Assembly: GCA_002694685.1 (NCBI GenBank)
Contig: NZMW01000003.1
Span: forward strand, 1 to 64,000
Direction: 5' to 3'
Length of the DNA stretch: 64,000 bases
DNA from: Balneola sp.
GTDB taxonomy: Bacteria; Bacteroidota; Rhodothermia; Balneolales; Balneolaceae
In this document: piece by piece, positions 13,288-38,665 of the stretch
How positions within the stretch are numbered: position 1 is the stretch's first letter
Layout of the letters: every line of letters starts with the position of its first letter
Position numbers and translations under genes: made by a program
Notes under the pieces: model-generated
Databases searched by the model: none
Told to the model about the DNA's origin: nothing
What the model saw: only the letters and a program-made list of their open reading frames with translations

Positions 13288-14346
13288 ATGTCAGATATGC
13301 GAAATCCGTTAAGAGGGAGGGGCGCAACAGATAACCCCGTTAATAGGTTTGAAGGAAATTATATCGACTACGACGTTGATGAAGAAACCGGTGAAAAGCC
13401 ATCACCCAAAACCCAACTAATCAGGGACGATACCAAGTCGGTCATCACATATAACAAAAGTGAGGACATCAGTTTTAATGCAAGTATTAATCCATATCGG
13501 GGCTGTGAACATGGATGTATTTACTGTTATGCACGGCCCTATCATGAATTTTTAGGCTATTCTTCCGGGCTGGATTTTGAGTCTAAGATTGTTGTGAAGT
13601 ATGATGCACCGCAATTATTAAAAAAGGAACTAAGCTCTCCAAAATGGAAGCCTCAGGTAATAGCGATGAGTGGAGTCACGGATGTATACCAGCCTTTGGA
13701 AAAGAAGCTCGAAATAACAAGAGGATGCCTTGAAGTATTGGCTGAATTTCGAAATCCGGTGGGACTGATCACCAAAAATCATCTTATAACCCGTGATATT
13801 GATCTGCTTTGTGAGCTTAATGACTATAACTGTGTAAGTGTGACTATTTCAATTACCACCCTCGATAAAGATCTTACCGGGGTGATGGAGCCTCGGACTT
13901 CTCGTCCCAATAAAAGACTTGATGCCATTCGAAAGCTCTCTGCCGCAGGTATTCCGGTTGGCGTGAACGTAGCTCCGATTATTCCGGGGCTTACAGATCA
14001 TGAATGTGCAGAGATTCTGGAAAAAGCGGCAGCAGCAGGTGCCTCATTTGCTGGGTATACCATAGTTCGTTTACCCTATAAGGTGAAAGATATGTTTACA
14101 GAGTGGCTTGGGCATCATTATCCCGATCGCAAAAAGAAAGTGCTACGCAAGATATTAGATATCCGCGATGGGAAGTTAAACAGCTACGAGTGGAATGAAC
14201 GAATGAAAGGGAAGGGCAACTTCTCAAAACAGATATCCGATCTTTTTAAAGTTCAGACGAAACGTTTGGGGCTTAATGAGAAAAAGCGTGTGTTGACTAC
14301 CGAGCATTTTAAGAAGAGTACGGGATCACAGTTGAAGCTGTTTTAA
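13288..14346 (+). CDS. PA0069-family radical SAM protein
   Basis: A 352-residue radical S-adenosylmethionine protein of the PA0069/Rv2578c family, related to spore photoproduct lyase-like enzymes. The 4Fe-4S ligands are the Cys residues of YRGCEHGCIYCYARP. Other family parts are the N-terminal RGRGATDNP, VIAMSGVTDVYQPLEK and ITKNHLITRD. The reaction is unknown; a nucleic-acid repair or modification role is often suggested but unproven. The start follows a GGAG ribosome-binding site. Confidence 0.88.
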   Translation: MSDMRNPLRGRGATDNPVNRFEGNYIDYDVDEETGEKPSPKTQLIRDDTKSVITYNKSEDISFNASINPYRGCEHGCIYCYARPYHEFLGYSSGLDFESKIVVKYDAPQLLKKELSSPKWKPQVIAMSGVTDVYQPLEKKLEITRGCLEVLAEFRNPVGLITKNHLITRDIDLLCELNDYNCVSVTISITTLDKDLTGVMEPRTSRPNKRLDAIRKLSAAGIPVGVNVAPIIPGLTDHECAEILEKAAAAGASFAGYTIVRLPYKVKDMFTEWLGHHYPDRKKKVLRKILDIRDGKLNSYEWNERMKGKGNFSKQISDLFKVQTKRLGLNEKKRVLTTEHFKKSTGSQLKLF

Positions 14347-14376: not shown

Positions 14377-14513
14377 GAAACAATTCGATTTTTCTCTCGT
14401 CTATATAAGTGGTTAGTAACTTTTTAAAAATCCGGCGTCTTAGTTCGGGAGCAAAATAGAAAAAGTAGCTTTTTCAAAAATATCGGCTCTCTTATTTTGA
14501 TGTCGGTTTTTTT
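14377..14513 (+). ncRNA. Candidate structured RNA with ECF-like promoter
   Basis: GAAAC at 14377-14381 and CGTCTA at 14398-14403, 16 bases apart, form an ECF-type promoter pattern. From 14432 the sequence folds. An outer stem pairs 14432-14439 with 14499-14506. An inner hairpin, GAAAAAG-TAG-CTTTTTC, spans 14459-14475. Two further helices, 14447-14452 with 14486-14491 and 14452-14458 with 14493-14499, compete or form a pseudoknot. Seven T follow at 14507-14513, as in a terminator. A transcript of about 100 nt, or a 5' leader of the ankyrin gene, would fit. A second ECF-like pair, GTAAC at 14416 with CGTCTT at 14436, complicates the reading. Confidence 0.35.
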
Positions 14514-14637
14514 ATGCCCTTCATTTTTGTGATTTCATCCAATCTTAATATTAGAAGTGTATTTCTAATTTGACATTTGAACACTCGGAAATTACAATTC
14601 AGTGCTAATCTAAATCTCTTATAAAGGAGGATTCGAT

Positions 14638-15018
14638 ATGAACGAAGAAGCATTTCTTGAAGCTGCAGAGAACGGCGATTTTGAAACTATCCAAGGGTTG
14701 CTACAGGATGGACTAAGCGTTAACACTAAAGATGTACACGACCGAACGGCCTTGCTTAAAGCCGCAAAGTATGGACATAAAAAAATAGTAGAACTGTTAA
14801 TTAAACATGGCGCAGAAGTAGATTATCGTGATAATCGGGGGACTTCGGCTTTATATTGGGCATCAACGAATGGGTACTATGACATTGTACAGTTATTGAT
14901 AGATAACAGCAGCGATGTGGATGTACATGATGACAGGGGATGGTCGGCAAAAGATCAGGCAATTACCCAGCACCACAGTAACATTGTAGAATTATTAAAC
15001 GCTGCAGGTGCTCATTAA
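14638..15018 (+). CDS. Small ankyrin-repeat protein
   Basis: A 126-residue protein made almost wholly of ankyrin repeats: EAAENGDFETIQGLLQDGLS, then HDRTALLKAAKYGHKKIVELL, then NRGTSALYWASTNGYYDIV, plus a partial fourth unit. The repeats mediate protein-protein contacts. There is no signal peptide, so it is probably cytoplasmic. A near-perfect ribosome-binding site, AAAGGAGG, stands before the ATG, stronger than for most genes here, suggesting high expression. The unusual leader at 14377-14513 lies upstream. The partner is unknown. Confidence 0.88.
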   Translation: MNEEAFLEAAENGDFETIQGLLQDGLSVNTKDVHDRTALLKAAKYGHKKIVELLIKHGAEVDYRDNRGTSALYWASTNGYYDIVQLLIDNSSDVDVHDDRGWSAKDQAITQHHSNIVELLNAAGAH

Positions 15019-35501: not shown

Positions 35502-35528
35502 TAACCTTTTTAGGTATCATCAGTGTAC
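35502..35528 (+). promoter_or_regulatory. Putative autoregulated ECF promoter
   Basis: GTAACCTTTTTAGG begins at 35502, and AGTGTA lies about 16 bases beyond the AAC. The -35 half is nearly the same as that before the DUF5916 gene at 38634 (GCAACCTTTTAAGG). The -10 half matches CGTCTA at four of six positions. It immediately precedes the sigma gene, as expected for autoregulation. Confidence 0.45.
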
Positions 35529-35564
35529 ATAGTTGGAAACAGAAAGCTCGGGAAATTTTACACG

Positions 35565-36128
35565 GTGGATTCAACTTCGGATAAGGCATTAATGATGAAA
35601 GTGAAGAATGGGGACCTTGATAAATTAGGTCTGCTGTTTGAGCGATATAATCGCCCGCTGTTCAGTTTTTTCTACCTGATGTGCAAGGAAGCCGAGCTGT
35701 GTGAAGATCTGGTTCAGTCTGTTTTCGAAAGGATCTTAAAATATCGGGAGACCTACACAGGTGATGGTAAATTTACCACCTGGATGTTCAGCATAGCCCG
35801 AAATGCTCATATCGATCATTACCGAAAGCAACAGCGAGAAGGAATTCCGGTAGAGATTGATGAAGAAAGGTTGGAGCTGGACGATGAAGAAACCAAAGTT
35901 GTTGTCAATAAGCAGGAAAAGAAAGACTTGCTTGAGATGGCACTGGAAAGGTTGGACGAAGACAAGAGAGAGATAGTAATTTTAAGCCGATATGAAGGAT
36001 TGAAATACAAAGAAATCGCTGACATCCTGGATTCTACAGAAGGAGCGATAAAAGTTAAAATGTTTAGGGCCATGAAAGAGTTAAAAGATTTAGTAAACAT
36101 GCTAAATGAGGAGTGCAGCAATGAATGA
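35565..36128 (+). CDS. ECF-type RNA polymerase sigma factor
   Basis: Group 4 sigma-70 factor with only regions 2 and 4. Region 2 spans NRPLFSFFYLMCKEAELCED to KFTTWMFSIARNAHIDHYRK. Region 4 has REIVILSRYEGLKYKEIADI and a typical HTH tail, EGAIKVKMFRAMKEL. The longest frame starts at a GTG at 35523, which would fall inside the putative promoter. I therefore use the GTG at 35565, with ATG at 35592 also possible; the product is about 187 residues. It is followed, with overlap, by an anti-sigma-like gene and two DUF4097 genes, a typical envelope-stress operon layout. Confidence 0.88.
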   Translation: MDSTSDKALMMKVKNGDLDKLGLLFERYNRPLFSFFYLMCKEAELCEDLVQSVFERILKYRETYTGDGKFTTWMFSIARNAHIDHYRKQQREGIPVEIDEERLELDDEETKVVVNKQEKKDLLEMALERLDEDKREIVILSRYEGLKYKEIADILDSTEGAIKVKMFRAMKELKDLVNMLNEECSNE

Positions 36129-36909
36129 GAAACATGAACAGTTGATTGCCGATTATCTAGCCGGGTCTCTCGATGACGCCGGCAAGACAAAAGTAGAGGA
36201 AATGATCGCCAGTGGTGAAATTGACTTTATGGAATTTCGAGAGCTGGAAAAATTACATGAGGATTTGGGTTCAATACCAACCCCGGCGCCTGGCAAGGCA
36301 ATGAGTGCAAATTTCTATGCTATGCTGGAGGAGGAAAAGAAAAATATTAAACCTTCATGGATTGAGTCGGCAGTAGACCATATCCGCCAAGTATTGGAAG
36401 AATTGACTATGCCTCGCCTGGCTTACGGGTTAGTGCTGTTATTTATAGGTGGTTTTATAGGGACACAGCTAAATGGAGGACAGTCTGAAATTGAACAGCT
36501 CAGCCAGGAAGTGCAGGATATGCGTGAAATGATGATGGTAAATATGCTGGAAGGCGCTTCGGCGGCAGACAGGCTTAAAGCGGTGACCATTAGCAGTGAA
36601 TTGACCTCCGTAGATTCTGAAGCTATTCATGCTCTTTTATTTACATTGAATAATGATCCCAGTGTAAACGTACGGGTTCAAGCCATAGAAGCTTTGAAGC
36701 GATGGGGGAATAATGAACGGGTTCGCCAGGGATTAGTTAAATCGATTGCTAAGCAGCAATCCCCAATTGTAATCATAGAATTAGCGGATGCCATGTTGGA
36801 ATTAGAACTTCGCAATTCGGCACCGGAATTCAGAAAGCTTATCGAAGAGAGAACGCTGGATTTCACCGTAAAACAGAAACTTGAAAACAGCATAGCTGCA
36901 CTATCGTGA
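36121..36909 (+). CDS. Anti-sigma-like membrane protein with HEAT repeats
   Basis: The ATG lies inside the sigma gene's last codons, so translation is coupled. The 262-residue product has a cytoplasmic N-terminal segment resembling anti-sigma domains (LIADYLAGSLDDAGKTKVEE) but lacking the zinc Cys/His. One membrane helix follows (LAYGLVLLFIGGFIGTQL, about residue 98-115), then a coiled stretch. About 110 residues of HEAT-like repeats come next, PSVNVRVQAIEALKRWG being the clearest. I infer it holds the sigma factor at the membrane and senses a partner through the extracytoplasmic HEAT part. Confidence 0.72.
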   Translation: MNEKHEQLIADYLAGSLDDAGKTKVEEMIASGEIDFMEFRELEKLHEDLGSIPTPAPGKAMSANFYAMLEEEKKNIKPSWIESAVDHIRQVLEELTMPRLAYGLVLLFIGGFIGTQLNGGQSEIEQLSQEVQDMREMMMVNMLEGASAADRLKAVTISSELTSVDSEAIHALLFTLNNDPSVNVRVQAIEALKRWGNNERVRQGLVKSIAKQQSPIVIIELADAMLELELRNSAPEFRKLIEERTLDFTVKQKLENSIAALS

Positions 36910-36917
36910 GGAAGAGT

Positions 36918-37808
36918 ATGAAAACTGTGATAACGTTTATAATTGTTTTAGCAAGTACAGCTTTATATGCACAAACGACTATTTCATCTCAAAGGGTTCA
37001 GGAAGAGATTGAAATGCGAATCCCAGCTTCTGAATTTAACGCTGAAACCTTCTTTCACCTAAAGAACATAAATGGAGATTTGAATGCTGAAGGTTATGAT
37101 GGAGATGAAATCATCATCACAGGGACAAAGATTATCACAACCAAACCCAGATATAAAGATGACTTTAATCCCGATGAAATTTACCTGGATCGGCTGGACG
37201 GTAGGAATAGCATTTTTGTATTTGTCCGTCAGCCTGGGGTCGAAGTGAGAATACAGGGGGATGAGTTACATTATGACTCAAGAAAAAGAAGCAGGAAAAA
37301 ATATAGCAATGATGATCGTTTGGACTTCGAGTTTAACCTTCAGGCAAAAATACCACGCCATCTAATGGCGGAAATTTCCACTATCAATGGCGGAGAAGTT
37401 GTTGTTGAAGGCATGAAGAATGGTGTTGAAGCATTTAATGTAAACGGAAGTGTTTTTGTGAATGATGTAGCGGGTCATGTAAAAGCCAACACGGTAAATG
37501 GTAATATCCGTGTAGAGTTTAGTGAAACTCCCTTAGATGACTCTGAATTCAACACGGTAAACGGAACAGTTGAAGTATTTGCACCAAAAAATTTAGCTGC
37601 TGTTGTAACCTTCAAGAGTATGCACGGTGAACTATATACCGACTTCGAGAATATTGAATACCTGCCTAACCGGGTAAAAAAGAATAAGGATGGGAAGAAC
37701 CGGTACAGCATAGAGCAAACAGCTCCAATTCAAATCGGCGAAGGCGGTCCTGAAATGCACTTTCAGCTTTTAAATGGAAGTGCCTACATCAAACAAAGAA
37801 AATCATAA
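36918..37808 (+). CDS. Exported DUF4097 beta-repeat protein, paralogue 1
   Basis: I start at the ATG preceded by GAGGAAG, giving a signal peptide ending LYAQ. The 296-residue protein has the DUF4097 right-handed beta-helix-like repeat, visible as STINGGEVVVEG, AFNVNGSVFVNDV, NTVNGNIRVEF and NTVNGTVEVF. Such proteins often sit beside ECF sigma and anti-sigma genes, but their role is unknown. It differs from its neighbour by a long insert of basic residues (HYDSRKRSRKKYSNDDR, about residues 116-132). A location in the periplasm or at the outer membrane is likely. Confidence 0.82.
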   Translation: MKTVITFIIVLASTALYAQTTISSQRVQEEIEMRIPASEFNAETFFHLKNINGDLNAEGYDGDEIIITGTKIITTKPRYKDDFNPDEIYLDRLDGRNSIFVFVRQPGVEVRIQGDELHYDSRKRSRKKYSNDDRLDFEFNLQAKIPRHLMAEISTINGGEVVVEGMKNGVEAFNVNGSVFVNDVAGHVKANTVNGNIRVEFSETPLDDSEFNTVNGTVEVFAPKNLAAVVTFKSMHGELYTDFENIEYLPNRVKKNKDGKNRYSIEQTAPIQIGEGGPEMHFQLLNGSAYIKQRKS

Positions 37809-37820
37809 AGAATAAATACC

Positions 37821-38624
37821 ATGAATACGTTAATAAAACAGTTCGTTTTTACAGTAATAATCAGCCTTCTTTCCATCCCGGCGCTGGCACAAAATAATCT
37901 TGAAATTCCTCTTTCAAACCCCGGGCAACCTGGAAAATTGATTGTGGCGGCTAACTTCTCTGACGAAGTACAGGTGAGAGTACATGACAAAGATAATGTC
38001 ATCGTTAATTATGATGGTCAAGAAGACGAGGATGATCATGATGCCATGAGAAACGGAATGCGAAGGATTTCAGGCGGTGGAGTCAGTATAGATGTAACCG
38101 AAGATAATAACGAAGTACGGGTTAATACCGGCCCTATGCCAAACAGTGATTTAGAGATGATCATCTATGTCCCCAGAAACTTTTCACTGAAGTTAAATAC
38201 CATTCAAGGGGACGTTATGGTTACCGGCCTAAAAGGAGAGTTAGAAATCAGTGCCGTTAATGGCGATGTAGAGCTCTTGGATATTTCAGGTACGGTTTTA
38301 GTGAATAGCGTGAATGGAGATATAGAGATTGATTTCAATGAAGTTGATCCTGATTCCCCAATGTCTTTCACCGGAGTAAATGGTGATATCGATGTGTCAC
38401 TGCCTGCAAATGCTAAGTTCACGGCAAAAATGAAAACCGAGTGGGGTGAAGTTCTCACTAACTTTGATATGGATATAAACCGCACTCCTTCAAAAACGGA
38501 AGAAAATAAAGATGGAGAGTACCGTGTATCTGTGAATAAATGGATCACCGGAAAAGTAAATGGCGGAGGTCCGGAATATTTGTTCAAAACTCTACACGGA
38601 GATATTTCAATTCGTAAAAAGTAA
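37821..38624 (+). CDS. Exported DUF4097 beta-repeat protein, paralogue 2
   Basis: A 267-residue paralogue of the preceding gene, with a signal peptide ending ALAQ. Its repeat series is NTIQGDVMVTG, EISAVNGDVELLD, VNSVNGDIEIDF and TGVNGDIDVSL. Both proteins end with a similar tail (GGPEMHFQLLNGSAYIK and GGPEYLFKTLHGDISIRK), pointing to tandem duplication. It is the last gene of the sigma operon, 12 bases after its paralogue. Confidence 0.82.
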   Translation: MNTLIKQFVFTVIISLLSIPALAQNNLEIPLSNPGQPGKLIVAANFSDEVQVRVHDKDNVIVNYDGQEDEDDHDAMRNGMRRISGGGVSIDVTEDNNEVRVNTGPMPNSDLEMIIYVPRNFSLKLNTIQGDVMVTGLKGELEISAVNGDVELLDISGTVLVNSVNGDIEIDFNEVDPDSPMSFTGVNGDIDVSLPANAKFTAKMKTEWGEVLTNFDMDINRTPSKTEENKDGEYRVSVNKWITGKVNGGGPEYLFKTLHGDISIRKK

Positions 38625-38633
38625 AATAATTCA

Positions 38634-38665
38634 GCAACCTTTTAAGGTTGTGCTCGTCTATATAA
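38634..38665 (+). promoter_or_regulatory. Putative ECF promoter with overlapping inverted repeat
   Basis: GCAAC at 38634 and CGTCTA at 38655 are 16 bases apart. The arms CAACCTT and AAGGTTG around TT (38635-38650) form an inverted repeat over the -35 region. The 13-mer CTCGTCTATATAA at 38653 occurs identically at 14396, ahead of the candidate RNA. Confidence 0.5.

Follow-up and report, generated by a model that had tools for sequence, protein, structure and literature searches.

The 64,000-nucleotide stretch of Balneola sp. DNA analysed here (the window) contains, between a gene of the PA0069 radical SAM (rSAM) family and an ankyrin-repeat gene, an intergenic element at positions 14377–14513, the parts of which are listed in Table 1. 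The original prediction, made from the letters alone, described an ECF-like promoter pattern followed by a compound fold with an outer stem, an inner perfect hairpin and seven T residues, and all of these were found. The promoter reads GAAAC-N16-CGTC, and the fold has a predicted energy of −29.3 kcal/mol (z = −2.99) that was equalled by none of 200 shuffled sequences. The 5′ end of the small RNA, as read off the position of the promoter, would lie at about 14408–14411. In the RNA of the window, the segment 14411–14426 has a mean unpaired probability of 0.71. The RNA carries two near-copies of the motif GUA(A/G)CUUUUU, one at 14415–14425 and the other in the loop at 14464–14474, where it sits within the perfect hairpin; the loop sequence GTAGCTTTT is kept across most relatives. 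It is because of these two near-copies that the element appears to have mutually exclusive helices. The relatives keep the copies as sequence and not as alternative helices, which argues against the switch that had been read from them. At the gathering score, Rfam gave no match in the 64-kb window.

Table 1. Features of the small-RNA locus, and RNAs of like design elsewhere (positions are those of the window unless a locus is named)
Feature	Position	Strand	Remarks
PA0069-family radical SAM gene, conserved upstream neighbour	13288–14346	+	NCBIfam NF033668, 472 bits against a cut-off of 360
ECF-type promoter	14377–14401	+	−35 GAAAC at 14377–14381, 16 bp, −10 CGTC at 14398–14401
Predicted small RNA	14409–14513	+	Fold z = −2.99; covariance models R1 and R2
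5′ unpaired antisense segment GGTTAGTAACTTTTTA	14411–14426	+	16 nt complementary to susC codons 2–7 (G000:C13:21744)
Outer (terminator) stem, left arm CCGGCGTC	14432–14439	+	Covariation and MFE fold
Inner stem, left arm GGGAGC	14447–14452	+	MFE fold
Perfect hairpin GAAAAAGTAGCTTTTTC	14459–14475	+	Holds second GUAGCUUUUU motif, 14464–14474
Inner stem, right arm GCTCTC	14486–14491	+	MFE fold
Outer (terminator) stem, right arm GATGTCGG	14499–14506	+	Covariation and MFE fold
T7 of intrinsic terminator	14507–14513	+	T-run at equivalent place in relatives
Separate ankyrin-gene promoter TTGACA-N17-TACAAT, outside the RNA	14570–14598	+	
Ankyrin-repeat gene, downstream neighbour in the window's genus only	14638–15018	+	Pfam Ank_2
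RNA of like design, not beside rSAM gene	292–381 of L190 (G031)		12-nt match to susC start of own genome
RNA of like design, not beside rSAM gene	1501–1600 of L197 (G021)		11-nt match to susC start of own genome
RNA of like design, not beside rSAM gene	1501–1602 of L045 (G010)		15-nt match to susC start of own genome
RNA of like design, not beside rSAM gene	1501–1610 of L051 (G022)		18-nt match to susC start of own genome
RNA of like design, not beside rSAM gene	1511–1592 of L046 (G027)		Match to susC start not found

A DNA search across the genus detected the region in every one of its 10 genomes (the window's own among them), each time with the same two flanking genes. The alignment of the genus resolves into distinct conserved blocks, namely the promoter, an unpaired 5′ (A/U)GUAGCUUU motif, the stem CCCGATATC/GATATCGGG, the loop, which carries one more GUAGC motif or, in some cases, two, and the T-run; past the T-run follow a distinct TTGACA-N17-TACAAT promoter and a conserved block in the 5′ UTR of the ankyrin gene. 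A covariance model built from these 10 sequences only, and blind to gene neighbours (R1), matched 12 places outside the genus but within the family (E ≤ 0.0122), nine of which lie directly 3′ of the same radical SAM gene. A second model, R2, built from 19 sequences, was run against 128 genomes of the order and counted at E ≤ 5e-4, weaker matches down to E 0.05 staying outside the counts. It placed the RNA at 35 places in 34 genomes, all within the family, with 19 of the 35 being its own training set. Covariance-model matches extend the RNA to seven other genera of this family. It lies 45–110 nt downstream of the rSAM gene in 31 of the 35 places, while the downstream neighbour varies by genus (redoxin and pdxH, OsmC, or a TonB receptor). 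None of 80 named rSAM loci carried the RNA at E ≤ 5; nearly all of them are from other lineages, and they include that of Fodinibius sediminis, the best named match (61% identical rSAM). Since these loci of other lineages are without it, the lineage of the RNA is probably the Balneolales.

The outer stem covaries. In 31 aligned sequences (30 distinct), changes on both sides occur in six of the 11 stem pairs (32 cells) and 94.2% of the stem cells pair, although these counts lean towards structure because the alignment was fitted to the model. The values were reached by none of 500 shuffles, and slid partners gave far lower ones. A MAFFT alignment of the genus alone has both-sided changes in four of the 11 pairs. 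Compensatory changes, whose absence from homologues was to have counted against an RNA, are thus present, and the region 14377–14513 holds a real, conserved small-RNA gene.

Throughout the genus (10 of 10 genomes) the promoter is kept, if GTAAC/CGTG is allowed in one of them, with a spacing of 16 bp in eight and of 17 bp in two. Across genera, the strict pattern GAAAC-N16/17-CGTC precedes 23 of the 35 model matches (shuffle expectation, 0.001) and the relaxed pattern GNAAC-N16/17-CGT precedes 28 of them (shuffle expectation, 0.06). It is from this conservation that the promoter draws its support, since the bare pattern is not enriched in the window's own genome, where GNAAC-N16-CGTCTA matched twice and the reversed control 10 times. 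Among 31 genomes, GGAAAC-N16-CGTCTWA matched six times, only one match being the RNA, and the copies of the motif elsewhere in the own genome and in the 31 genomes formed no clear regulon. An A/T motif upstream of the −35 box is conserved in only 14 of 28. Judging by the promoter motif, the RNA is probably transcribed by an ECF sigma factor. An overlapping GTAAC...CGTC, which had seemed to allow a second promoter reading, is most simply due to chance because its CGTC is the left stem arm. F. psychrophilum is described as having sigma-ECF promoters whose −10 box is CGT, one of them before the putative regulatory RNA Rfp11 (PMC9723704).

The shared 13-mer CTCGTCTATATAA pointed out earlier is exact at both 14396 and 38653, and two matches with at most one mismatch occurred in none of 100 shuffles. 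Its second copy belongs to a promoter-like GCAAC-N16-CGTCTATATAA at 38634, which overlaps a palindrome and stands before a DUF5916 gene (so named in the original prediction). Upstream of that gene, an operon at 35523–38624 includes an ECF sigma factor gene, followed by genes that look exported or regulatory. It is possible that 35523–38665, which comprises the ECF operon and the promoter-like GCAAC site, shares a regulon with the sRNA, and we regard this as a lead, not as evidence.

Several weak covariance-model matches away from the rSAM gene proved to be the antisense strand of the start regions of SusC-like TonB receptors. At one such locus (L188 in G018), the sequence ...GAGGTCATCT ATG TTC AAA AAG CTA CTA... 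encodes M F K K L L. In genus g5, the loop sequence GAGUAGCUUUUUAAACAUAGAUGACC is the reverse complement of a susC start, covering the Shine-Dalgarno sequence, the AUG and the signal-peptide codons for lysine and leucine. The start pattern, searched for in 128 genomes, matched receptor starts, the antisense strand of RNA genes and also coding sequence related to neither. The short seed alone is useless, being barely above its control in the own genome (224 sites for AAAGCTAC versus 195); among 30 loci inspected, the bare-seed sites included one signal-peptide start (L070).

Receptor genes were gathered mainly by protein similarity, lest complementarity choose the targets, with the query P0001, itself a predicted target. 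The starts examined came from all 16 receptor matches (E ≤ 1e-8) of the own genome and from 84 of the 127 matches in 18 other genomes (two of 37 in G027). Four of the 84 starts (L193, L196, L219 and L238) were taken from pattern or model-match loci, and the protein search lists all four. Start codons were set by a scoring rule and not by annotation, and the measure used was the longest perfect complementarity between a genome's own RNA and the −30 to +36 region of a receptor gene. The longest runs were 25 nt in G001 (L307), 24 nt in G003 (two genes, one of them L309), 21 nt in G026 (L297), 18 nt in G008, G021 and G022, 16 nt in G000, G006 and G013, 14 nt in G004 and G018, 13 nt in G002, 12 nt in G015, 11 nt in G005 and 10 nt in G025. 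Low values were obtained among the examined receptors of G031 (8 nt), G009 and G010 (7 nt each) and G027 (6 nt). Control windows of the same locus never reached the best run in the 14 genomes with runs of at least 11 nt, and 6.8% of them reached it in G025. Dinucleotide-shuffled RNAs were beaten in 15 of 19 genomes, with 0–13 of 500 reaching the observed run, and not in the other four; with rSAM-linked RNAs only, this was so in 14 of 16 genomes (runs of 10–25 nt), the misses being G009 and G031.

The complementarity is specific to the genome. RNA and target vary in matched ways in the own genome (GUAAC/GUUAC) and in the pairs with L307 (G001), L309 (G003) and L297 (G026). The runs of the 19 genomes sum to 274 with their own receptor sets and on average to 203 when RNAs and receptor sets are swapped; for the 16 rSAM-linked RNAs the sums are 243 and 188. 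In either case the own-pair sum was reached in 0 of 20,000 permutations, the draws not being independent because the genomes are related. The smaller set omits L051 (G022), which was added after its antisense motif had been seen, as well as L045 (G010) and L046 (G027), which are not rSAM-linked. The own-pair excess corresponds to 76 of 20,000 permutations within the genus and eight of 20,000 in other genera. The fit to own targets is not universal, since the RNAs of G005, G025 and G031 fit foreign receptor sets as well or better; for G005, 13 of 18 foreign sets are at least as good. The targets are proteins with TonB plug and CarboxypepD_reg domains, and a SusD/RagB-family lipoprotein gene comes next in five of five operons checked (two in G000, three in G001 and G018). 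In the own genome they are encoded on other contigs than the RNA, which has its own promoter and terminator.

The window's own RNA deviates from those of its relatives by a 5′ GUAAC in place of GUAGC. The closest susC homologue, L267 (G000:C13), deviates correspondingly, with AAG TTA CTA versus AAG CTA CTA, a synonymous Leu change. Between RNA positions 14411–14426 and codons 2–7 of L267, 16 contiguous pairs can be formed (−21.1 kcal/mol for the segment), a run matched by 0 of 111 control windows and 0 of 500 shuffled RNAs. In a second susC gene (L268, G000:C2), AAAAAGCTACT just 3′ of the AUG matches the loop motif at 14464–14474, 11 nt of which are complementary to codons of this gene, and TACTAACC upstream matches the 5′ segment. 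Both L267 and L268 are followed by a SusD/RagB-family lipoprotein gene. The energies of the whole duplexes are unexceptional, 12.6% of control windows being as good for L267 and 81% for L268; the own-genome signal resides in the contiguous runs and not in the whole-duplex energy.

The computed features are the conserved gene unit, the covariation of its stem, the promoter motif, the genome-specific perfect complementarity to susC starts and the susD gene downstream; from these we infer transcription, its start site, the sigma factor and repression as the outcome. With a probability of roughly 0.8, which rests on sequence analysis, we consider 14377–14513 to be the gene for a trans-acting antisense sRNA of about 105 nt that is probably ECF-driven and would block the initiation of susC translation. 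An ECF sigma factor, probably of the envelope-stress type, would transcribe an RNA consisting of a single-stranded 5′ segment and a long terminator hairpin, the large loop of which would bear further antisense segments. The 5′ segment and the loop would pair with the Shine-Dalgarno sequence, the AUG and the signal-peptide codons (M-F/Y/L-K/R-K-L-L) of susC mRNAs, which encode TonB-dependent receptors of the SusC type and whose genes come first in susCD operons. Such pairing should keep ribosomes from initiating, and less receptor would be made while the sigma factor is active. Across the 15 genomes, the pairing segment has mean unpaired probabilities between 0.25 and 0.80; with values as low as 0.25, the loop may not open unaided. 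Hfq (PF17209) was not found in the own genome at E ≤ 0.1, a search that gave matches in five of 14 control genomes, and the sRNAs of this genome may therefore do without Hfq or use a different chaperone. A wider proposal, which we hold with less confidence but still find rather probable, is that a new sRNA family serves as the noncoding branch of an ECF response to envelope stress in one Balneolales lineage that lacks Hfq. It would hit the KKLL codons and the start of several susC operons, RNA and receptors would co-evolve via synonymous codons, and unlinked paralogues (L190 and L197) would serve other susC groups.

The position of the RNA could suggest other roles. In the window's genome it ends 124 nt upstream of the ankyrin gene, which it precedes in each of the genus's 10 genomes, as a 5′ leader or switch of that gene might. 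However, the T7 terminator stands ahead of the separate conserved ankyrin promoter, which is followed by a 5′ UTR block (GCCAATCTAAA in most relatives; region 14570–14637). This promoter and block are kept before orthologues of other genera without the RNA (L019–L021 and L023), other genera have the RNA but not the ankyrin gene, and complementarity between the RNA and the ankyrin start extends to 6 nt at the longest. The ankyrin leader or riboswitch was rejected because the RNA does not stay with the gene and because a terminator and then a separate promoter lie between them; we consider it extremely improbable. Of the two roles originally offered, the switch for the ankyrin gene is not supported and the stress-controlled RNA of about 100 nt is, with an ECF-type promoter of its own, a covarying terminator stem and conservation across genera. 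The place on the other side, 45–110 nt behind the rSAM gene in 31 of 35 places, together with a stem and T-run that make a good terminator, would also suit an RNA that is mainly the terminator or 3′ UTR of the rSAM mRNA, possibly processed out, with an incidental or secondary complementarity to susC. Yet a conserved promoter lies between the rSAM gene and the RNA, the loop is far too long and too conserved for a plain terminator, and the perfect susC complementarity is genome-specific, which makes such an origin quite unlikely.

Pairing alone gives no direction, and the RNA could pair with susC mRNAs without repressing them, the mRNA acting as a sponge or the pairing activating translation or stabilising the mRNA; FoxJ, a sigma-E sRNA, is described as also activating (PMC11005410). 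Against this, the pairing spans the AUG and the first codons and often lies close to the Shine-Dalgarno sequence or includes it, a geometry that normally blocks initiation, and FopS is described as repressing at susC (PMC11697453). An effect other than repression is accordingly unlikely, and the antisense repressor of susC translation is the reading that we prefer.

Several known systems resemble this predicted repressor. RybB and MicA of enterobacteria are sigma-E-dependent sRNAs that repress outer-membrane proteins (OMPs), and the enterobacterial sigma-E sRNAs depend on Hfq. The window's RNA differs from these Hfq-using RNAs in that no Hfq was found in its genome. In Fusobacterium, FoxI and FoxJ belong to the same class of sigma-E-dependent, OMP-repressing sRNAs (PMC11005410). 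As with RybB/MicA and with FoxI/FoxJ as described there, an ECF-type promoter is combined with complementarity to the start regions of outer-membrane protein mRNAs; unlike them, the present RNA has SusC receptors as predicted targets and unusually long contiguous pairing, and no sequence relation to them was found. FopS of Bacteroides thetaiotaomicron prevents the translation of susC mRNA by binding close to its start codon, susC being first in the operon; its family is described as having 14 paralogues, sigma-ABfr promoters and binding by RbpB, with no Hfq (PMC11697453). A single-stranded 5′ seed, a terminator hairpin and pairing, here predicted, near the susC start codon are common to both, as is the lack of Hfq, which was not found in the window's genome. 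The window's RNA, in contrast, has one rSAM-linked locus per genome with only a few unlinked relatives, an ECF-type promoter and antisense segments inside the terminator loop, and by promoter and copy number, as these are given for FopS in that report, it is not a FopS member. In its action it would be closest to FopS and the sigma-E sRNAs. The DonS RNAs of Bacteroides are likewise short RNAs against susC homologues, but they are cis-antisense RNAs encoded opposite each susC, whereas the present RNA is encoded elsewhere (PMC7366714). GibS (RF04182), also from Bacteroidota, is an sRNA whose 5′ seeds are directed at start codons, and shares the 5′ antisense seed; the two direct targets given for it are not SusC (PMC7366714), unlike the targets predicted here, and no significant Rfam match links the two. 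Searching seven of the RNA loci against Rfam at E ≤ 5 gave no credible match at the RNA, with a library that includes GibS and possibly a FopS model; the weak matches either miss the RNA or score far under the cut-off, save for eukaryotic models over L045 (E = 0.1 and 3.4).

A literature search for small or non-coding RNA of Balneolaceae, Balneola or Gracilimonas found no relevant paper. If the proposal is true, a lineage without a described regulatory sRNA in the literature searched would have its own sigma-factor/sRNA arm over outer-membrane receptors, one that arose separately from RybB/MicA, FoxI and FopS. The matched differences between species in RNA and mRNA, including the synonymous Leu codon, would then be ready-made compensatory mutants, and covariance-model matches antisense to start codons would offer a route to finding sRNA targets.

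In genus g6 (L044, L049, L181 and L184), the loop is without GUAGCUUUU and a new conserved sequence, AUAGCCCUGA, is present in three of the four; the targets of this RNA have probably changed. In families f3 and f5, a similar susC start was seen (L050, L257 and L265), in which GAGGTC is followed by ATGTTTAAAAAGCTACT or a close variant. The rSAM-linked RNA was not detected in the f3 and f5 genomes bearing these starts, and a distant RNA may exist in both families. Among the unlinked RNAs of like design, the matches of L190 and L197 concern other receptor starts of their genomes, which were spotted by eye and lie outside the statistics. L045 carries AACATACAAGACCTC, the 15-nt complement of GAGGTCTTGTATGTT at the susC start L252 of G010, a start found by the target pattern and not by protein similarity, and hence outside the counts.
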